From: Clostridia bacterium
GTDB taxonomy: Bacteria > Bacillota > Clostridia > Christensenellales > Borkfalkiaceae
Direction of reading: 5' to 3'
Length of the DNA stretch: 41,807 bases
Assembly (NCBI GenBank): GCA_017468085.1
Contig: JAFUJR010000026.1
Location: forward strand, 1 to 41,807
The notes beneath the pieces were generated by a model that was not told the DNA's origin, ran no database searches, and worked only from the letters and a program-made list of their open reading frames with translations. The translations under genes were made by a program, and so were the position numbers. Below are positions 2 to 31,811 of this stretch, piece by piece (position 1 is the stretch's first letter; each line of letters opens with the position of its first letter).

Positions 2-3000
2 ACGGGCGTTACGCAAGATTGCTCGGCATGGACGGGCGGTATTGACCGCGGTGTGCTTGGTCAGTGGAATAACGGTACGCTTGAAAACGTATACCTGCAA
101 GTACATACGACGAACGTAGTAAAAGAGCACTACGGCGTATTGTGCTTTGGTATGGATACGGGCTCTAAAATTGCAAACGTAGTTGTGGAAGTAACGAGCG
201 ACAGCACGCTTTTCCATTACGTTATGATGACCGACAATGCATTAGCAGACGGTAATTCGGTTGGCGTAGTAGGTTCTTACGCAAACGGCGCAACGGAAAG
301 CGCTGAATCGGCTTGGGGCGTAAACAGCGGCTTCCATCAGCAGCTTTCTTGGATGGTCGCGGAAGAAGCAAACGACGAATTGCTTACGTTCACCAGTCCT
401 TACTGGACAATCGACGCGACGGCAAGAACGATTACGATGAATCCCGTTAAGTTCACCTTTGAAACAGAGGAAGAAACGCCCGTTGGACCCGAACAACCCG
501 AAATTATCACCGAACAAGTGAAGGTCAACGAAACCTATTACAACGAAGCGGGGAGCTTAGATTTGACGGGTAGCGGCATTGACGTAAGCGCAATTACGGA
601 AATCACGAGCGGCGGAACGGCAGTCAGCTTCACGGCAAACGGCAATATTTTGACGGTTGCGGCGGGTACGAGCGGTGCGGAAAGCGAGTACGTAATTACG
701 ACCCCTGCGGTAATTTATACCGTAACCGTGTTGGCTTGCGACAACGCAATTACCACGGCAGACGAATTTACGGCTTGGGTAGCGGCTCCCTCTGGCTACG
801 TTGTGCTTGCAAACGATATCGATTTGAAAGGCGCAACCGTCGGTGCGGAAACTAATATGGCAGGCACGTTCAACGGTCAAGGCTATGCGATTTATAACCT
901 TACCACGACGGGAACGACGGGCGTATTCAAGTACGTTGGCGGTACGTTTAAAAACGTACAGTTTATCAACTACACGCAGGATTGTGAAAACGTAGCGGCA
1001 ACGCGCGGCTTGTTTGGCGATAACGTATGGGGTACGATTGAAAATCTTTTAATTCAAGGTCAAATTATCAACAACAGCGCGGGACATAACGGTATTATCG
1101 TAAAATATACCAGCAGCGGTACGTTTAAAAATATCGTTGCATATATGGAAAGCAGCGCTACGGATAAATATCATTACGGCTTAACGAGCGGCGGCGACGG
1201 TACGCCTACGGCAAGCAACGTTTACTTCGTATCCTCTAATAGCCTTGGCGTAGCGTTTAACTATGACAACAGCCTCGGTACGGTAGAAAATTGTGCAAGC
1301 TACGCGACGGAAGCGGCTATGCTTGCGGCGGTGGATTTCAGCACGTGGGAAACGCCTTGGACGGTGAACGAAAACGGCGCGCCTCGTATGCGTGAAATTT
1401 CCGTGCCTACCATTCTTTTGAGCGACGTCAACGCGCAAATCTACGACGGCAAAGCAAGCCTTACTTTATCAGCGCTTGGCATAAGCAGTTCTGCGGTTAC
1501 GAAAGTAACCGTTGGCGGCGCAAACCTTTGGTATGAAATTTCTAACGACGCGCTTACGATCAACGCGGCAAAGAGCGGTACGTATAAGGTCGTTATCTAC
1601 ACGGTATGGTCGGCATATCAAGTAAAAGTATATTGCTATAATTTGGAACCGGTTTTGCTTAGCGGCTCTGTCCTTGCGCAAAGCGTAGACGGGCAAGCAA
1701 GCGTTGACCTTAGCGCGTACGATTTGCAAGGCGCAAAAATTGTCGGCGTAACTTGCGGCGGCGTTTCCATTGATTTCACGCACGAGAGCAACGCGTTGAC
1801 TTTGGTCAATGCGCCCTACGGCGACCAAACCTACGAGCTGCTTACCGACGGGCAGTATAAATATATCCTTGACTGTTGCGTATACGAAAACGGTATTTCG
1901 ACGGCGGATCAGCTCAATACCTGGCGTAATGCAGGCATGACGGGTTATTCCGTGCTTCTTAACGATATCGATTATAACGGCGCAACGCTTACCGAAGGCG
2001 GATACGTTATCGACGCAACGCTTGACGGTAGAGGTTATAAAATCACCAACTTCACTTATAAGAACTTTGTAACGAGATTGTATAACAACAACGCAGTCGT
2101 TAAAAACGTATACTTTGATAGCATAACGCAGGATTGCTCGTCTTGGACGGGCGGCATCGACCAGGGGCTTTTCGGTAATTGGCACTCGGGCGTTATCGAA
2201 AACGTTTACGTAAACGTAACGACGACGAATATGAGCGGCGAACATTACGCTACGTTGTTCTACGGTACGGAAGCAGGTGCAGTGGTTAGAAACGTAGTTG
2301 TAGAAATCGAAAGTACGGTTGATAAATTCCACTACGTGTATATGAAAAATGAGGGCGCAGGCGCAGTTGTAGAAGGCGTAGTAGGTTCGTATGGTAACAG
2401 CACGGGCTCTACCGAAGGCGGTAATGAAGCTTGGGGTGTAAACAGCGGCTTCCATCAGCAGCTTTCTTGGATGATCGCAGAAGAAGCAAACGACGAGTTG
2501 CTTTCCTTCACCAGCCCTTACTGGGTAATCGATACAGCGGCGAGAACGATTGAGCTTCTTCCTTTGGCAGAAACCAAACCCGCTGTCGTAGAGGACGGTT
2601 ATCTTGTAAAAGAAAGCGAATCCGCTTACGCTATCGTTATTGACGCAAACAACACTTCGAATGCTATCAGAAAAGCGGTTACGGAATTACAAACGCTGTT
2701 CAAGGAGGCAACGGGCGTTCAGCTTCGTTGCGTAACGGATAGCAACGCGACCTATGCAAGCAACGTCAAGTATATTTCGCTTGGCTACAACAACTATACC
2801 AGCGACGCGGGCGTTTCGCTCGGCTTAAACGAAGAAATCGGCTCGCAAGGTTATAAAATCGTAACGGTAGAACAGAGTATTATCATCCTCGGCGAGCCGC
2901 AGGGCGTTCTTTACGGCGTATACCAATTGATGCACGAATTGTTCGGCTTTGAACAGTACACCAAGGACGTTTACACCTTGAACGGCGCAACCACGGTTGC

Positions 3001-4321
3001 ATTGCCCGACTTAAAAATCGTTGACGCACCCGACGTAGAACACCGCGTGGCGTTCAGCGGCGTACAGCTCAACGACGAAACCTCGCGTAACCGTATGCGC
3101 ACGCAACACTCCGGTGAAATCATTATGAATAATGGTAACGCGCACAATATGACTCGTTATATCGTGCCCTTCGATACCTATTATTCGACGAATCCTACTT
3201 GGTATAGCTCCATGACGGACAGCAGCGATACGTACGGAACGACGCAGCTTTGCTATACGGCGGGCGAGTACGGCTCGGATAACTACAACGCGATGAAAGC
3301 GGTTGCGGTTGCAAGCATTAAGGAAATTATCCTTGCAAATCCTCAGGCGGATATGATGTCCTTAACGCAAATGGACGTCGAGGGTATGTGGTGTAGCTGC
3401 TCCGGCTGTCAAGCAATCATTTCGCAGTACGGTGAAGAATCGGCAACGCAAATTCTGTTCGTTAACGACGTGGTTTCTGAAATCGAAACGTGGCTGAACA
3501 ACGAACAGGGCGGCAGAGAAGTCAAGTTTATGATGTTCGCTTATTACGAAACGCAGGAAGCGCCTACCGGCTTGACCCTGAACGAAAACGTTTCCGTTTG
3601 GATCGCGCCCATTAAGGACAACTATACGACGGGCGTAAACGCAAGCGGCAACAGCATGGGCTCGATGCTTTCCGATTGGAAGAACGTAGCAAGCAGCGTA
3701 GCAATTTGGGCGTACGGCGTATACTTCAGCGAATACCTCGTACCTTACAACACCTTCGATTATATCGACCAGCTTGTTGACGCGTGCGTAGCAAGCAACG
3801 CGGAATATATGTGGATTCAGGGTAACTGGAACACCACGCAGAACACGGGCTTCGACAGCTTGAAGGCATATCTCATTTCCAAGCTTATGTGGGATTCCAC
3901 GCTTGACGTAAACACGCTTACCGACAACTACTTCAACGCAGTTTACGGCGCGGCGGCAGACAAGATGAAGGAAGTCTACACGGAAATGAAGACGGAATTG
4001 GCTTCGATGAGCTTGAGCGGCAATATTTACGACGCGCCTTGCGGATTTAGCGAATGGGATAACAGCTATTTGACGGCACAGCTTGACAGATTGGTTGCGG
4101 CTATCGGTATGCTTGACTCGAATGCGGCGGATTACCAGACGATTTACGACGCAATCGTTTGCGAATCGATCAGCTTCCGTTATATCTATAAGGAAAATTC
4201 CTTGCTCGGGTTAGGCGGTAATTATTCCACCGACGCTTGGGGCACGTTTGAAGAAGACGTAGCCCGCCTTGGCTTCACGATGGTCAGCGAGCAAAAAACG
4301 ATGGAGGCTTATCTTGCTTAA
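2..4321 (+). CDS. Large secreted DUF4838 glycosidase-like protein with beta-helix repeats (5' end outside window)
   Basis: The frame is open from the first complete codon at position 2, so the N-terminus and any signal peptide lie upstream. The first half carries GLUG-like beta-helix repeats, seen as 'FNGQGYAIYNLT' and 'LDGRGYKITNF' followed by 'GLFG' and 'ENV'-type strands. A block starting 'TQDCS.WTGGID' occurs near 11-455 and again near 2126-2570, and a shorter relative lies between them. From about 2590 to the stop the protein resembles DUF4838, a family related to alpha-glucuronidase-type hydrolases. It has the 'GVYQLMHELFGFEQYT' segment and the family's Cys-rich motif 'VEGMWCSCSGCQA' near 3375-3415. 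Substrate and catalytic residues cannot be assigned. Its position before glycan-degrading genes suggests cell-surface binding and cleavage of a complex glycan. Confidence 0.8.
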   Translation, partial: TGVTQDCSAWTGGIDRGVLGQWNNGTLENVYLQVHTTNVVKEHYGVLCFGMDTGSKIANVVVEVTSDSTLFHYVMMTDNALADGNSVGVVGSYANGATESAESAWGVNSGFHQQLSWMVAEEANDELLTFTSPYWTIDATARTITMNPVKFTFETEEETPVGPEQPEIITEQVKVNETYYNEAGSLDLTGSGIDVSAITEITSGGTAVSFTANGNILTVAAGTSGAESEYVITTPAVIYTVTVLACDNAITTADEFTAWVAAPSGYVVLANDIDLKGATVGAETNMAGTFNGQGYAIYNLTTTGTTGVFKYVGGTFKNVQFINYTQDCENVAATRGLFGDNVWGTIENLLIQGQIINNSAGHNGIIVKYTSSGTFKNIVAYMESSATDKYHYGLTSGGDGTPTASNVYFVSSNSLGVAFNYDNSLGTVENCASYATEAAMLAAVDFSTWETPWTVNENGAPRMREISVPTILLSDVNAQIYDGKASLTLSALGISSSAVTKVTVGGANLWYEISNDALTINAAKSGTYKVVIYTVWSAYQVKVYCYNLEPVLLSGSVLAQSVDGQASVDLSAYDLQGAKIVGVTCGGVSIDFTHESNALTLVNAPYGDQTYELLTDGQYKYILDCCVYENGISTADQLNTWRNAGMTGYSVLLNDIDYNGATLTEGGYVIDATLDGRGYKITNFTYKNFVTRLYNNNAVVKNVYFDSITQDCSSWTGGIDQGLFGNWHSGVIENVYVNVTTTNMSGEHYATLFYGTEAGAVVRNVVVEIESTVDKFHYVYMKNEGAGAVVEGVVGSYGNSTGSTEGGNEAWGVNSGFHQQLSWMIAEEANDELLSFTSPYWVIDTAARTIELLPLAETKPAVVEDGYLVKESESAYAIVIDANNTSNAIRKAVTELQTLFKEATGVQLRCVTDSNATYASNVKYISLGYNNYTSDAGVSLGLNEEIGSQGYKIVTVEQSIIILGEPQGVLYGVYQLMHELFGFEQYTKDVYTLNGATTVALPDLKIVDAPDVEHRVAFSGVQLNDETSRNRMRTQHSGEIIMNNGNAHNMTRYIVPFDTYYSTNPTWYSSMTDSSDTYGTTQLCYTAGEYGSDNYNAMKAVAVASIKEIILANPQADMMSLTQMDVEGMWCSCSGCQAIISQYGEESATQILFVNDVVSEIETWLNNEQGGREVKFMMFAYYETQEAPTGLTLNENVSVWIAPIKDNYTTGVNASGNSMGSMLSDWKNVASSVAIWAYGVYFSEYLVPYNTFDYIDQLVDACVASNAEYMWIQGNWNTTQNTGFDSLKAYLISKLMWDSTLDVNTLTDNYFNAVYGAAADKMKEVYTEMKTELASMSLSGNIYDAPCGFSEWDNSYLTAQLDRLVAAIGMLDSNAADYQTIYDAIVCESISFRYIYKENSLLGLGGNYSTDAWGTFEEDVARLGFTMVSEQKTMEAYLA

Positions 4322-26102: not shown

Positions 26103-29100
26103 ATGAAATTTTTCAAAAAATTCACGATGAAAAAAGCGCTTTTGACCTGCCTTGCGGTGTTCGCAACCACGTTCTGCGCGGCGTTGGGCGTTAGTTTGTT
26201 TAACCCCGTTGCGGCGAAAGCAGATACGCATAGCAATACCGTTTATCAAACGGACGGTGCGTCTGTGCGCGTATTCCAATGGAACGGGAGTACTTACGAA
26301 AAAACCGACAGAAAAGGTATTCGTTTCCACGTTGAAATGGGCGCGGGGTACACGGTAAAAAACGGCCCGGTTTTATTTACGAGCGAAACCCACGAAAGAG
26401 GTTCGTTTGTTATTGCCGAAGGCTATACGACCAAGACGCTCGTAATTCCCACTCGTTTACTTTCGGGGGATTTAACGTTGGACACCGATAACGTGTTGGC
26501 AATCGACACCACCGAGTACTGGTTTACTGACAGCGACGGCAACTGGGAGTCGGTTGCATATATTTACAACGTGCCTGAAGAACGCTACACGGACAACTTT
26601 TCGTACAGAGGCGTCGTTTTAAATAGCGCAGGTGAGGTCGTAGCGGAAACCGAGGTTACGGAAAGAAGTTTGACGTGGGTCGCAAAACAGGCGTATAACG
26701 ATACGGTTAACGGCGATTTCGATTGGGGCACGGACGATAGCGGTACCGACCTTAACGAGACAGCCAAGGGATTAATCAAGGAATATATCCCCACGTACAA
26801 TATTACGTATAAAGTAAACGGCGCTGAGACGACGGAAGAGGTTTTATGGGGCGACGTACCTCAAAACGTGCCTACTGAAGGCGTAAAGGGCGCTTGGTAC
26901 GACACGGAAAACAGCGAAGAGGTCAACGTTACTACGGAAATGACGTGGGCAGAAGACCGTACTCTCGTTTTAGAAACGACGACTTCGGAAGATTTTGTGT
27001 TAACGGGCGTTGCCGACGAGGATAGCTTTGCGGACGCTAACGGAAACACCTACAGTGGTTTTAAGGTTTTCGCTACGTTACATACGGACGTGTTTGCCGA
27101 TAAAACGGAAATGGATATTCGCGCCGTAAACGTAGAGCACGTGCGCGGCGGCGAAGTAGTAGACAGCGGCTTCACCTTGCAAGGCGTTTGGACGCTTAAA
27201 GAACAGAATAGCCTTGGCGAATGGCAAATGCGTTTGTTCTTCGCGTTTGACAGCGACAACGGCGCGAAGCTTGCAAGCGGCGACCAAATCGTAATCAAAG
27301 GCGATTCCGTATTCTATTACGACGGCGTTATGTATAAATTGACGGAAGATTACGCCATCGACTATACGCTGGTAAACGACGCGGAATCTTACGGTATTTT
27401 CTTGGGGTATTTGTATAACTCCGACGTAAAAGAAATTACCAACTGCGCCGAAGATAATACGGGCAATAATGGAGCCCCCAATGAATATACGATTCGTGTA
27501 GAATTTTACGACGACGTCATGATCAACGGTGAGTTCACCTTTGAATTTGGCACGAATGAGGACGGAAGCGAAATTGACAAAACGGCTTACCCTTGTCCCG
27601 TGTTTATTAGATGCGGTGAAGACGATAGCAAGCTGATTCCCGTTTCCGGCGGTAGATATTATTGGAACGAAGGCGAGCACAAGATTTTGGAATTGATCGG
27701 CGCTGGCGACTATGAAAACAAGGTATTCGGTTGGCATAGCGGCGACGAGTTGATTGCCGCTCCTCGTACTATCGTGAAGCAAAACGGCGGCTATTATATA
27801 TTCCAAGACCAAATGTACGCTTATTTCTTACTGAGCGGTGTAATTGACAAGTGGAACACGGCGCTTGGCGACTGGGTTGTCGGTGAGGAAGTGGCGCAAT
27901 ATGCAACGAGTGAATTTGAGGCGCAAGGTACGGTTACGGCAATTAACGACAACGGTGTTGCAGAAAACGAAATTCGTATCAATACGGCAAATCACTGGTT
28001 CCCCGAAAGCGCAAAAGTAAATATGCTTACCGCTGAAAACATGTCGGAGACAGCTCCTTATGCGGTATACCGTACTGCGGCGGACGGAACCGTTACCGAA
28101 GTAGAGAAAATAAGATATCACGGTACGTCGAAAGACGCAGGCGGTTATCATCAAATCCTTGGGTTCTGTGACGCAGGCGACTTTACGGTAGGCGATATCG
28201 TTACGATTGCGGCAGGCACGCGCTTCTGGTTGGGTACGGAGTATTACACCGTTACGGAAGAAATTACCTATTATTATAACGGCAACTTCTGGGCTCAAAA
28301 CTTTGACGCAAGCACGATGGGCGAGTTGTCTTCGGCAAGCTTTGAACAACGTGCGCATAACCAAGGCGCCAGTGAAGTTCGTATGTACTTCACAGCCCCT
28401 TTGGAAGGCTACACGACGGTAGATAATGCGTTCGATGATTTGCAGCTTGGCGTAGGTAGTATTACGTTAAACGGCACACCGTTTACCTACGTTAGATATC
28501 AACGTTGGGACGCAAGTTCCACGTGGCTTTCTTTTGGCGGCACGGACATGATTGGTAAAATCGCGCTTGGCGATACTATCGTTATTGAAGAAGGCACGAC
28601 GATTTGGTCTGCGAATAACGTTGCTTATAAATTCACGGAAAAGGTAGAATGGATTTATTCTGCTAATCCTAATGACGCAAATCGTAATTGGTCGCGTGTA
28701 CACGGCGGCGTTACGGTAAGCGCAACGGCGGATAATGCAACGGTTAGCGGCGCGGGCACGTTTGCGGTTGGCGAAACGTACACCTTAAACGTAGCGCCTG
28801 TAGGCGATTACATTATCTCTTCCGTAATCGTGAACAGCGAAGAATTGCCTTTGAACGCAAACAATACTTATACCTTCACGGTAGAACAATCGAACGTAAT
28901 TGAGGTACAAACGGTTGTAGGGCATAAGGTATATTTCACAGTTCCCGAGGGCGCAGCGATTAGCGTAGATGGCAACGCAGTTGCCAACGGCGGTTTCGTT
29001 GCGGTAGCAAGCGGTGATGCGCTTACCTTCTCGGTTGCGGCAAGCGAAGGCTATAAGCTCACGGGAGTAATGGGCGCAACAGACAACGGCGACGGTACGT

Positions 29101-31811
29101 ATACGGTAAGCAACGTAACGGCAAATGTGACGGTTACGGTTTCGGTTGAAAAATTGTATAAAGTAACGTATTCGGGTGAAAACGTAAGCATTAGCGCAGA
29201 CGTAGCAGACGGCACGTGGGTAGACAACGGCACGAAGGTTACGTTTACTATCGGGGTAGACACCGGTTATACGCTTATCAACGTAGAGAATGCAACCAAG
29301 ATAGACGCAACTACTTACACGGCAACGGTAAACGGCGCAGACCTTGAAGTTAAGGTAAATGCAAAGGCAAACGATGCATTTATAGATCTTACAGAAAGAC
29401 TTTCTATGGAAGATAGAACGTCTTGGGGCGCGCATGATGGCGAAGTATATCTTGGCTTGTTGGATACGGGCATTACGAATACCGTAACCAATGAAAATGG
29501 TTCAACGAGCACAAACCACTATTTCAATACTTCTGTAAATGATACCTGGTACGTAGGCAACGAAGCGCCTATCACGGCAAACAACGGCGTGGATATTATG
29601 GAATATATCTACGTAAACGGCGTATCCGCAAGAAAATTGATTACCGACAACGCAAACGGCGTTAGAGGCGCGAACTCCTGTAGTTGTTGGCTTTCCAACT
29701 CTGCGGCATATCCCGTATACGTAGAAACGACCAACGGCAGTGGTTTGATGATGAGATTGGCGAAGGCTGTATACGGTACCGAATTTACGGTTACGATTAA
29801 GGCAGGTTTCACGATTACGAACGCGAATAGCGATTTGGTTGCAGTAACGAAAGATATTAACTTTAACTACACAAGCGGCACGATTAGCAAAGAAGTTATT
29901 ACTTCTCAATACACTGTAGCTTTGGACGGCGTAACGGCAGGCGCAACCGTAACGGCAAACGGCGAAGCTGTTTCCAACGGCGCAACGGTGGCTGAAGGCA
30001 CGGAAATCACCATCACGCCGAGCGAAGCATATAACGTAAGCTCTGTAACGGTAAACGGCGAAGCGCTTACGGCAAACAACGGCGTTTACACCTTCACCTT
30101 GTTGAAGGATTCTACCATTAACGTTTCGGCAACAATTAAGACGTATACGGTAACGTTGACGAATGATTCCACAAAAGCAACCGTAAATGATGTTAGCGAT
30201 AATATGACGATTACGCACGGTCAAACGTATTCGTTCACGGTAAGCGCGACAAGCGGTTATGCGCTTACGTCGGTTACGATTAACGGCGAAGAACAAGGCA
30301 CGGGCGGTTCGTACAGCTTCACGGCAAGCGGCGCGACCCCTATCGTTGTAACAGCAAAGAAACTTTATGCGGTAACGTGGAGAAATCCTACGGGCGCAAC
30401 GATTAGCGTAACGGCAAACGGCAACCCAGTTAACAGCGGTGATACGGTTGTGGAAGGTACTTCCATTTCCGTAACGGTAAAGGCAAGTAGTGGCTATCGT
30501 TTGGATACTGTTTCGGGTATTGGAAGTGTAAGCATTGATAAAACCCATGCAACAGCTAATACGTTTAACTACACGGTAAATGACGCAACGTCTATTTCCG
30601 CAAAGACGGTGAAGATGTATCAAATCACGTGGACGGAAGGCAACTTTACTATATCCGGCGTAACCAACGGCGGTTGGTATGATGATAATAGTACGCATTC
30701 TGTAAAGGTTGCCCCGGCGTCAAATCATGCGATGACAAGTATTACAGTCAACGGCGGTAGCAACGTTGGTGGTTCTACTTATATGACGGCGGAACAAGAT
30801 ATCACTGTGACGGTAAGCGGTAAAACGGCAACGATTGTCGTTTCCACCGAGGCATATCCTACGATTAAGATTAATCCGAATAATGCAACGGTTACGTTGA
30901 ATGGCGAGAGCTATACTTCTAGCACTAGTGTACAACTTCCTAAAGGTTCTCATACCGTAACGGTTGCGGATAGAACTAGTGGACTCACGACTTATACTGT
31001 TACAAATGTAAGCATTTCGGGTAGCGTATCTGGTGATACTACTGGTACGGCGGCGGGTGATTATTCTATCACAATTAGTGGTGACGTTACGATTGAGATT
31101 ACTACGAGTGATGGCGGCGGCTGTCTTGTTGAAGGCACGCTTGTAACGCTTGCAGACGGCAGCAAGAAAGCAGTGGAAGATTTGAAGGCTGGCGATATGT
31201 TGGTTGTATTCAATCATGAAACTGGTAAATATGACGTAGCACCTTTGCTTGTAAATACGCACGCAACGGCTGCAGCTGACTACTACACGGTAATTAGCTT
31301 GTACTTCTCTAACGGCGAAGTCTTGAAGATTGCTGACGAACACGCAGTATTTAGTAAGACGGCAAATAAGTACGTATATATCAATGCGGACAACGCATAC
31401 GAGTTTATCGGGCATGAATTTGTTTCGTCTGTATATGAAAACGGTGAAGTCGTAACCAAGCTTGTAACGTTGGATAACGTAACGATTACGGAAGAATATA
31501 CGCGTATTTTCACCCCTGTAAGCGTATGGCATATGAACGTTGTTGCGGATAATATGTTGACGCTTTCGGGTAGAACGGTAAACTTCTTTGAATATGATGA
31601 AACGATGAAGTACGACGAAGCAAAAATGCAAGCGGATATTGAAAAATACGGCTTGTACACGTATGAAGACTTTGCGGATTGCGTATCCGAAGAAGTGTTC
31701 AATGCATTTCCCTTCAAATACTTCAAGGTGGCAATCGAAAAAGGTGAATATACTATGGAAGAATTGATGTTCTTGTTTAGCGAATACAACGAGAGCGATT
31801 CCGAAAAGTAA
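26103..31811 (+). CDS. Giant secreted repeat protein with C-terminal Hint-like autoprocessing domain
   Basis: This 1902-residue protein has an 'gggagg' site upstream. Residues 1-41 are a Sec signal peptide with a probable cut after 'AKA'. Residues 50-233 form a 'GASVRVF..KGIRFHVEM' type domain. Four related modules of about 130 residues span 297-432, 433-590, 600-733 and 739-863, and a divergent fifth lies near 1093-1260. InlB/Flg_new_2-like repeats fill 868-1091 and 1267-1666. At Cys1674 ('GGGCLVEGTLVTLADGS') a Hint-like domain begins, with His1747 in 'KIADEHAVF' at the block B position. The usual block B Thr is Ala and no terminal His-Asn is present, so only cleavage at the Gly-Cys bond, Hedgehog-style, is expected. 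A helical tail (about 1837-1902) ends the protein. There is no LPXTG sortase signal or S-layer domain. The role is probably adhesion or surface display. Confidence 0.85.
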   Translation: MKFFKKFTMKKALLTCLAVFATTFCAALGVSLFNPVAAKADTHSNTVYQTDGASVRVFQWNGSTYEKTDRKGIRFHVEMGAGYTVKNGPVLFTSETHERGSFVIAEGYTTKTLVIPTRLLSGDLTLDTDNVLAIDTTEYWFTDSDGNWESVAYIYNVPEERYTDNFSYRGVVLNSAGEVVAETEVTERSLTWVAKQAYNDTVNGDFDWGTDDSGTDLNETAKGLIKEYIPTYNITYKVNGAETTEEVLWGDVPQNVPTEGVKGAWYDTENSEEVNVTTEMTWAEDRTLVLETTTSEDFVLTGVADEDSFADANGNTYSGFKVFATLHTDVFADKTEMDIRAVNVEHVRGGEVVDSGFTLQGVWTLKEQNSLGEWQMRLFFAFDSDNGAKLASGDQIVIKGDSVFYYDGVMYKLTEDYAIDYTLVNDAESYGIFLGYLYNSDVKEITNCAEDNTGNNGAPNEYTIRVEFYDDVMINGEFTFEFGTNEDGSEIDKTAYPCPVFIRCGEDDSKLIPVSGGRYYWNEGEHKILELIGAGDYENKVFGWHSGDELIAAPRTIVKQNGGYYIFQDQMYAYFLLSGVIDKWNTALGDWVVGEEVAQYATSEFEAQGTVTAINDNGVAENEIRINTANHWFPESAKVNMLTAENMSETAPYAVYRTAADGTVTEVEKIRYHGTSKDAGGYHQILGFCDAGDFTVGDIVTIAAGTRFWLGTEYYTVTEEITYYYNGNFWAQNFDASTMGELSSASFEQRAHNQGASEVRMYFTAPLEGYTTVDNAFDDLQLGVGSITLNGTPFTYVRYQRWDASSTWLSFGGTDMIGKIALGDTIVIEEGTTIWSANNVAYKFTEKVEWIYSANPNDANRNWSRVHGGVTVSATADNATVSGAGTFAVGETYTLNVAPVGDYIISSVIVNSEELPLNANNTYTFTVEQSNVIEVQTVVGHKVYFTVPEGAAISVDGNAVANGGFVAVASGDALTFSVAASEGYKLTGVMGATDNGDGTYTVSNVTANVTVTVSVEKLYKVTYSGENVSISADVADGTWVDNGTKVTFTIGVDTGYTLINVENATKIDATTYTATVNGADLEVKVNAKANDAFIDLTERLSMEDRTSWGAHDGEVYLGLLDTGITNTVTNENGSTSTNHYFNTSVNDTWYVGNEAPITANNGVDIMEYIYVNGVSARKLITDNANGVRGANSCSCWLSNSAAYPVYVETTNGSGLMMRLAKAVYGTEFTVTIKAGFTITNANSDLVAVTKDINFNYTSGTISKEVITSQYTVALDGVTAGATVTANGEAVSNGATVAEGTEITITPSEAYNVSSVTVNGEALTANNGVYTFTLLKDSTINVSATIKTYTVTLTNDSTKATVNDVSDNMTITHGQTYSFTVSATSGYALTSVTINGEEQGTGGSYSFTASGATPIVVTAKKLYAVTWRNPTGATISVTANGNPVNSGDTVVEGTSISVTVKASSGYRLDTVSGIGSVSIDKTHATANTFNYTVNDATSISAKTVKMYQITWTEGNFTISGVTNGGWYDDNSTHSVKVAPASNHAMTSITVNGGSNVGGSTYMTAEQDITVTVSGKTATIVVSTEAYPTIKINPNNATVTLNGESYTSSTSVQLPKGSHTVTVADRTSGLTTYTVTNVSISGSVSGDTTGTAAGDYSITISGDVTIEITTSDGGGCLVEGTLVTLADGSKKAVEDLKAGDMLVVFNHETGKYDVAPLLVNTHATAAADYYTVISLYFSNGEVLKIADEHAVFSKTANKYVYINADNAYEFIGHEFVSSVYENGEVVTKLVTLDNVTITEEYTRIFTPVSVWHMNVVADNMLTLSGRTVNFFEYDETMKYDEAKMQADIEKYGLYTYEDFADCVSEEVFNAFPFKYFKVAIEKGEYTMEELMFLFSEYNESDSEK

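Follow-up and report, generated by a model that had tools for sequence, protein, structure and literature searches.

The DNA analysed here, hereafter the window, is a 41,807-nucleotide stretch from a Clostridia bacterium (Christensenellales; Borkfalkiaceae), corresponding to positions 1–41,807 of the forward strand of contig JAFUJR010000026.1 in assembly GCA_017468085.1. It carries a gene for a giant secreted protein, which stands alone between metK (S-adenosylmethionine synthetase) upstream and asnA (aspartate-ammonia ligase) and secA downstream (Table 1; labels beginning with L and G denote the loci and genomes compared). Cys1674, preceded by GGG, opens the last 229 of its 1902 residues, which comprise a Hint domain and a helical tail; this module occurs once in the window's own genome (G000). 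No LPXTG-like motif is present in the protein, as the initial annotation had claimed, its last 300 residues contain no hydrophobic segment, and there is no C-terminal membrane segment. Elsewhere in the window (53–4318), a 1422-residue protein matches DUF4838 and a GH67 N-terminal domain.

Table 1. Features of the secreted-protein gene, in window coordinates
Feature	Position	Strand	Remarks
Secreted-protein gene	26103..31811	+	One long frame, 1902 aa; 1689-aa relative in L002/G095
Signal-peptide-like start	26103..26228	+	Hydropathy: hydrophobic segment from residue 11; peptide end by eye
N-terminal ectodomain region (query for ectodomain homologues)	26235..27002	+	Matches in 19/57 same-genus genomes
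Cys1674, putative nucleophile; predicted scissile bond Gly1673–Cys1674	31122..31124	+	Cys in 66/66 bacterial modules and 23/23 viral Hint sequences
Hint domain, residues 1674–1822	31122..31568	+	Pfam match; AlphaFold2/Foldseek fold
Thr1719–His1720, at or adjoining the Hedgehog Asp46 (Asp303) position	31257..31262	+	HHalign: Thr1719 opposite Asp46
His1747, block-B histidine	31341..31343	+	His in 66/66 bacterial modules and 23/23 viral Hint sequences
Conserved helical tail, residues 1823–1902	31569..31808	+	Predicted helices, conservation, tail-profile scans

The initial annotation proposed a Hint fold beginning at a cysteine that follows glycine, with His1747 in the block-B position. Both residues lie where it placed them, and the fold is borne out by structure prediction: the AlphaFold2 model, built from a 47-sequence alignment, is a Hint fold (pLDDT 92.2), and Foldseek returned 57 PDB chains at E ≤ 0.001, among which intein and Hedgehog Hints rank highest. 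In Pfam, the last 249 residues match the Hint family best (PF01079; 27.4 bits, E 3e-6), slightly short of its cut-off of 29.7, and the best PDB profile match of the module is 6y75 (E 1.1e-6). By its predicted fold, its putative N-terminal nucleophile (Cys1) and its block-B histidine, the module is assigned to the HINT superfamily. The candidate nucleophile does not vary among homologues: across 66 distinct bacterial modules (>150 bits and >200 model columns, near-copies removed), six residues never change (Cys1674, Gly1686, Phe1735, His1747, Gly1770 and Phe1773) and Asp1685 is present in 65, whereas the residue preceding the cysteine varies (Ser in 29, Gly in 9, Leu in 6, Thr in 6 and others in 16). 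A C-terminal His-Asn and a C-extein were said to be missing and, by eye, are absent from the window module, so splicing is not expected. The module differs from inteins in this respect and in that whole bacterial modules end the protein, with 0–67 residues beyond the match.

Helices are predicted after the Hint domain at residues 1839–1849, 1854–1857, 1863–1868, 1871–1879 and 1885–1897. The helical tail that had been claimed thus stands, but its length is ~80 residues including a short linker, rather than ~65. Conservation of the tail in the 66 modules is about as tight as that of the Hint domain, with a mean column identity of 45% and conserved residues at Gly1850 and Tyr1854 (65 modules each), Tyr1849, Asp1845 and Lys1880 (63 each) and Gly1881 (62). 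In a single comparison, between the window and its closest named relative (L002), pS and pN are 0.582 and 0.078 for the Hint domain and 0.756 and 0.045 for the tail, in which synonymous change has reached saturation; the low pN relative to pS in both parts argues that the module is more than chance and is under purifying selection in that pair.

When 297 genomes of the order were scanned with a profile of the tail alone, 55 of them yielded 73 matches in total; 59 of these matches share a frame with a Hint domain (lists compared by eye). Seven of the other 14 were read and proved to be broken frames, contig ends and one chance match to an unrelated 289-residue protein; the remaining seven lie in open frames no longer than 152 residues. 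The Hint–tail pairing is therefore obligate, in that the tail accompanies a Hint domain in all long frames save the one chance match, and on these counts use of the tail on its own was rejected. Four short frames (L157, of 109 residues, L150, L153 and L158) retain all or part of the tail while most or all of the Hint is missing, and in one of them the tail directly follows a signal-peptide-like start; these look like products of decay by deletion.

Comparisons with known proteins place the tail in no known fold or family: it has no match among PDB sequences (best E 0.28) or in fold searches (the second comparison covered nine chains), and no Pfam family is found in more than three of the 66 members (best E 0.017). 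The last result bears on whether the Hint domain releases the tail as a toxin, as in PT-HINT pretoxins. That reading is highly improbable, and we rejected it: the similarity to PT-HINT (PF07591) that suggests it reaches only 19.6 bits over the last 249 residues against a cut-off of 27.7, one tail conserved among relatives takes the place of a variable toxin domain, no toxin family is matched, and the neighbours are metK, asnA and secA, with no immunity-like gene recognised among ten proteins scanned.

The proteins that carry the module begin in different ways. Ordinary signal peptides occur in some full frames; TasA/camelysin-type starts (PF12389) are found in L018 (above the cut-off), L022 (at it) and L021 (below it); and L026 has, by eye, a pilin-like start and lies near a gene with an N-methylation motif. 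The hosts at L003, L130 and L134 are predicted three-helix membrane proteins that lack a signal peptide and end in the module. List_Bact, MBG and YDG repeats occur among the hosts, several of which have List_Bact or InlB-type repeats. BLASTP (E ≤ 1e-5, alignment covering at least 30% of the shorter sequence) sorted thirty-six ectodomains, some of them cut by contig ends, into nine groups with no links between them, with 19, 7, 3 and 2 members and five singletons, a division that is only a guide because shared repeats may merge groups and remote homology may be missed. The differing fronts and groups support the expectation that the Hint–tail pair is used repeatedly at the C-terminus of different repeat proteins. 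Separately, the L003 gene is clustered with genes for an FtsK/SpoIIIE-family ATPase and for small proteins; the cluster may be type VII-like, an unproven assignment.

Matches to the module, weak and partial ones included, occur in 41 of 201 family genomes, in 88 of 396 order genomes (representing 37 of 142 genera) and in 9 of 398 genomes sampled over the phylum. In 67 of the 88 order genomes, as counted from the list, the match spans the Hint domain and most of the tail, and in the phylum search no match except the window's own extends past model position 91 of 239. Among the sampled genomes, the Hint–tail pair is thus a feature of one Clostridia order. Twenty-seven module loci come from named genome records, many of whose titles mention ruminant or rabbit gut samples, and the window module has no match among plasmids. 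Identity to G095 is 86% in the module and 57% in the N-terminal region. Searches with that region located the ectodomain with its module in G000 and G095, whereas in G985, G147, G049 and G979 frames sharing the same N-terminal region stop within the ectodomain; there, stretches reaching beyond the genes match neither the Hint–tail nor the tail profile. The frame in G965 is that of L019, with its Hint domain cut by a contig end, and that in G977 runs off its contig. Four homologues that end without the module indicate that an ectodomain is viable without it, and that the module is an addition not required for the ectodomain in every species.

The module also occurs on phage proteins. Among the best 80 of 146 matches on viral contigs, the whole Hint and tail ends frames of 766–823 residues in L160–L166 (four distinct module proteins), with no signal peptide recognisable by eye; in L160, the gene just before encodes a portal protein (phrog_156, E 2e-22). 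These loci group with the bacterial module L055 (99/86) in a tree that omitted five viral rows, which points to exchange with bacteria. Scanning viral contigs for the tail yielded four contigs only, all already among the whole-module matches. A sister group, L168–L181, has a similar Hint domain (HHalign of the two alignments, E 3.5e-31) followed by its own conserved tail of ~60 residues; the similarity of this tail to the window type is not significant (HHalign E 0.29, with about the first 14 residues aligned and the L180 row of the phage-tail alignment reduced to a single letter). Comparison with PHROGs likens L175 to tail fibres and L177 to baseplate-fibre connectors; L169 best matches a family of unknown function and only weakly a baseplate hub, and L168 has no match. 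The modules of L160 and L169 have no match among named phages. All 23 viral Hint rows (31 matches of at least 40 bits, minus the identical copies L161, L165, L166 and L173, and minus L188, L189, L196 and L218) retain Cys1 and the block-B histidine. In a single internal case, on a viral contig (L167:1870-4467), Hint and tail lie within a secreted repeat protein and at least 270 residues follow.

We propose, with middling confidence, that the last 229 residues form a self-processing module that gives the ectodomain its mature C-terminus, an outcome that Hog, BIL and phage-fibre chaperone modules each reach by a route of their own. Cys1674, helped by His1747, would attack the Gly1673 carbonyl in an N–S acyl shift, a step that we consider quite probable, to form a thioester. 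We infer that a nucleophile would then break the thioester, so that the Hint–tail leaves and the ectodomain acquires its mature C-terminus, and that the tail would probably be needed for the reaction to occur at the right time or place. Invariance of the cysteine and histidine in the bacterial and viral sets, while the preceding residue varies, favours self-processing, as do the Hint fold, the C-terminal position, purifying selection and the obligate tail. The sister Hint family argues in the same direction, since it caps phage proteins, some of them fibre- or baseplate-like, a known site of auto-removed C-terminal chaperones of another fold (PMC4690869). Against self-processing stand the internal module of L167 and the loss of the block-B threonine: the Thr of the TxxH motif, which aids catalysis in Hedgehog, is Ala1744 in the window, and column 1744 holds Thr in three and Ser in three of the 66 modules and mostly aliphatic residues elsewhere. 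The corresponding Hedgehog mutant, T326A, is described as strongly impaired (PMC9163320). The same replacements raise the alternative that catalysis has been lost and the Hint–tail stays as a structural or binding cap, which is quite unlikely given that a non-catalytic Hint would not need its invariant cysteine and histidine.

The fate of the thioester is a separate matter. Under the self-processing proposal, the common outcome would be self-removal, with water or a small thiol as the nucleophile, and not stable attachment, and we put its prospects at roughly even. Two things make us prefer it to surface conjugation: the hosts, which include secreted giants, membrane proteins and phage proteins, suggest no single obvious acceptor, and some ectodomains do without the module. 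Simple hydrolysis has no obvious need for a conserved tail, and that the tail is so strictly conserved is the best reason to suspect more than hydrolysis. Conjugation, which is possible but somewhat unlikely, would follow the Hedgehog C-terminal region (Hog): the tail would bind a lipid, a glycan or a wall amine or hydroxyl, and the Cys1674 thioester would be transferred to it, attaching the ectodomain without sortase. Hog is described as a Hint domain followed by a sterol or adduct recognition region (PMC2362128; PMC7242414), an architecture that the helical, obligate tail after the Hint domain resembles.

One point of comparison with Hog is the general base. Hedgehog Asp303 (Asp46) activates cholesterol and is reportedly absent from inteins; D303A retains DTT cleavage and D303H is active with a broader substrate range (PMC9163320; PMC13060885). 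Among the features that help separate Hog-Hints from other Hints, according to a review, is an Asp or His that serves to activate cholesterol (PMC7765530). Column 1719 is Asp or Glu in 35 of the 66 modules, column 1720 is His in 30 (the window included), and one or the other applies in 57; on the tree, each of these two traits forms clusters but has switched several times. Asp or Glu occupies the Asp46 column in one of the 23 viral rows and, by eye, in none of eight control Hints (6y75, 2lwy, 8w20, L089, L090, L095, L096 and L097) out of 12 aligned, the other four (L091, L092, L093 and L098) ending before that column. The residue of the window itself is Thr1719, however, and a histidine next to the Asp46 column also occurs in 8w20, which is, to our knowledge, a bacterial Hint protein not regarded as a Hog. 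The TxxH threonine is missing, as is the SCYA cysteine (Hedgehog Cys400), absent from the window module in an alignment made by eye at that end. Further differences from Hog are that the module is found in bacteria and phages, that it has no known sterol substrate, and that its tail has no match in the PDB. The module may thus work like Hog, but it is not classed there.

Other known systems offer partial parallels. Bacterial intein-like (BIL) domains share the Hint fold (the C. thermocellum entry 2lwy, and 6y75, whose title names BIL2 of Tetrahymena), and B-type BILs are described as lacking a C-terminal splicing motif and occurring in variable bacterial proteins (PMC7765530). The module has Cys1 and the histidine and lacks the block-B threonine, and N-terminal cleavage is a prediction for it; it differs from BILs in its obligate conserved helical tail, for which no BIL counterpart appears in the literature covered. 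More broadly, we found no account of bacterial Hints obligately paired with a helical tail in the portions of the Hint, Hedgehog and fibre-chaperone literature covered, BIL work being represented through citing papers. The C-terminal intramolecular chaperones of phage tail fibres (T5 pb1) are self-cutting modules on long fibrous proteins, as is proposed here, but these auto-released domains have another fold and Ser-based chemistry (PMC4690869), and no trimer requirement is known for the module. Sortase LPXTG signals resemble the module as modular C-terminal caps common to different surface proteins, several of those here with List_Bact or InlB-type repeats. They differ from it in that the window protein has no LPXTG and that a membrane segment is predicted in the last ~240 residues of none of 38 frames.

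Conventional anchors are scarce in these bacteria, which favours conjugation or anchoring: sortase (PF04203) was found in two of 201 family genomes, and SLH and CWB2 domains in none and one, respectively, of 36 module-positive genomes (of the 41 in the family, G069, G099, G107, G110 and G128, whose matches were weak or partial, were omitted). One of the two sortase-positive genomes is the window's own, however, with matches on two small contigs, and this speaks against conjugation, as do the four module-less ectodomain homologues, the three-helix membrane hosts and the phage protein with no recognisable signal peptide. In that genome, the sortase-like gene lies on contigs C55 and C56 (L128, L129) with the same neighbouring genes on both, possibly through contamination or strain variation. 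Given module-less homologues and phage carriers, anchoring was set aside as a settled function. It would be unlikely, on present evidence, for the module to be a bacterial counterpart of Hog, in which Hint and an acceptor-recognition tail covalently join the C-termini of many different surface proteins to a cell-surface molecule, each protein carrying its own single-turnover ligase, in a Clostridia group almost devoid of sortase.

The proposed self-processing cap, portable and always joined to its tail, is a direct candidate for how gut Clostridia of a sortase-poor family finish and hold giant surface proteins, and the Hint–tail pair could represent a maturation or attachment route that has not been described before. 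A bacterial Hint-plus-tail would also model how the Hedgehog Hint gained its acceptor-binding region, and a module that cuts on demand could serve as a single-turnover C-terminal processing tool.

Genes near the module were considered as possible makers of an acceptor. A conserved neighbour in this role was rejected, since the window gene stands alone and other contexts also lack such genes. Giant module-bearing genes at L004–L009, L027 and L028 are followed downstream by one or more of three recurring neighbours: a gene for a ~1000-residue protein, one for an ATPase and one for a membrane protein; across 28 loci compared, the ~1000-residue protein lies downstream in seven, the ATPase gene in six and the membrane-protein gene in four, and Pfam types the downstream genes as ABC-transporter parts in L007 and L027 only.
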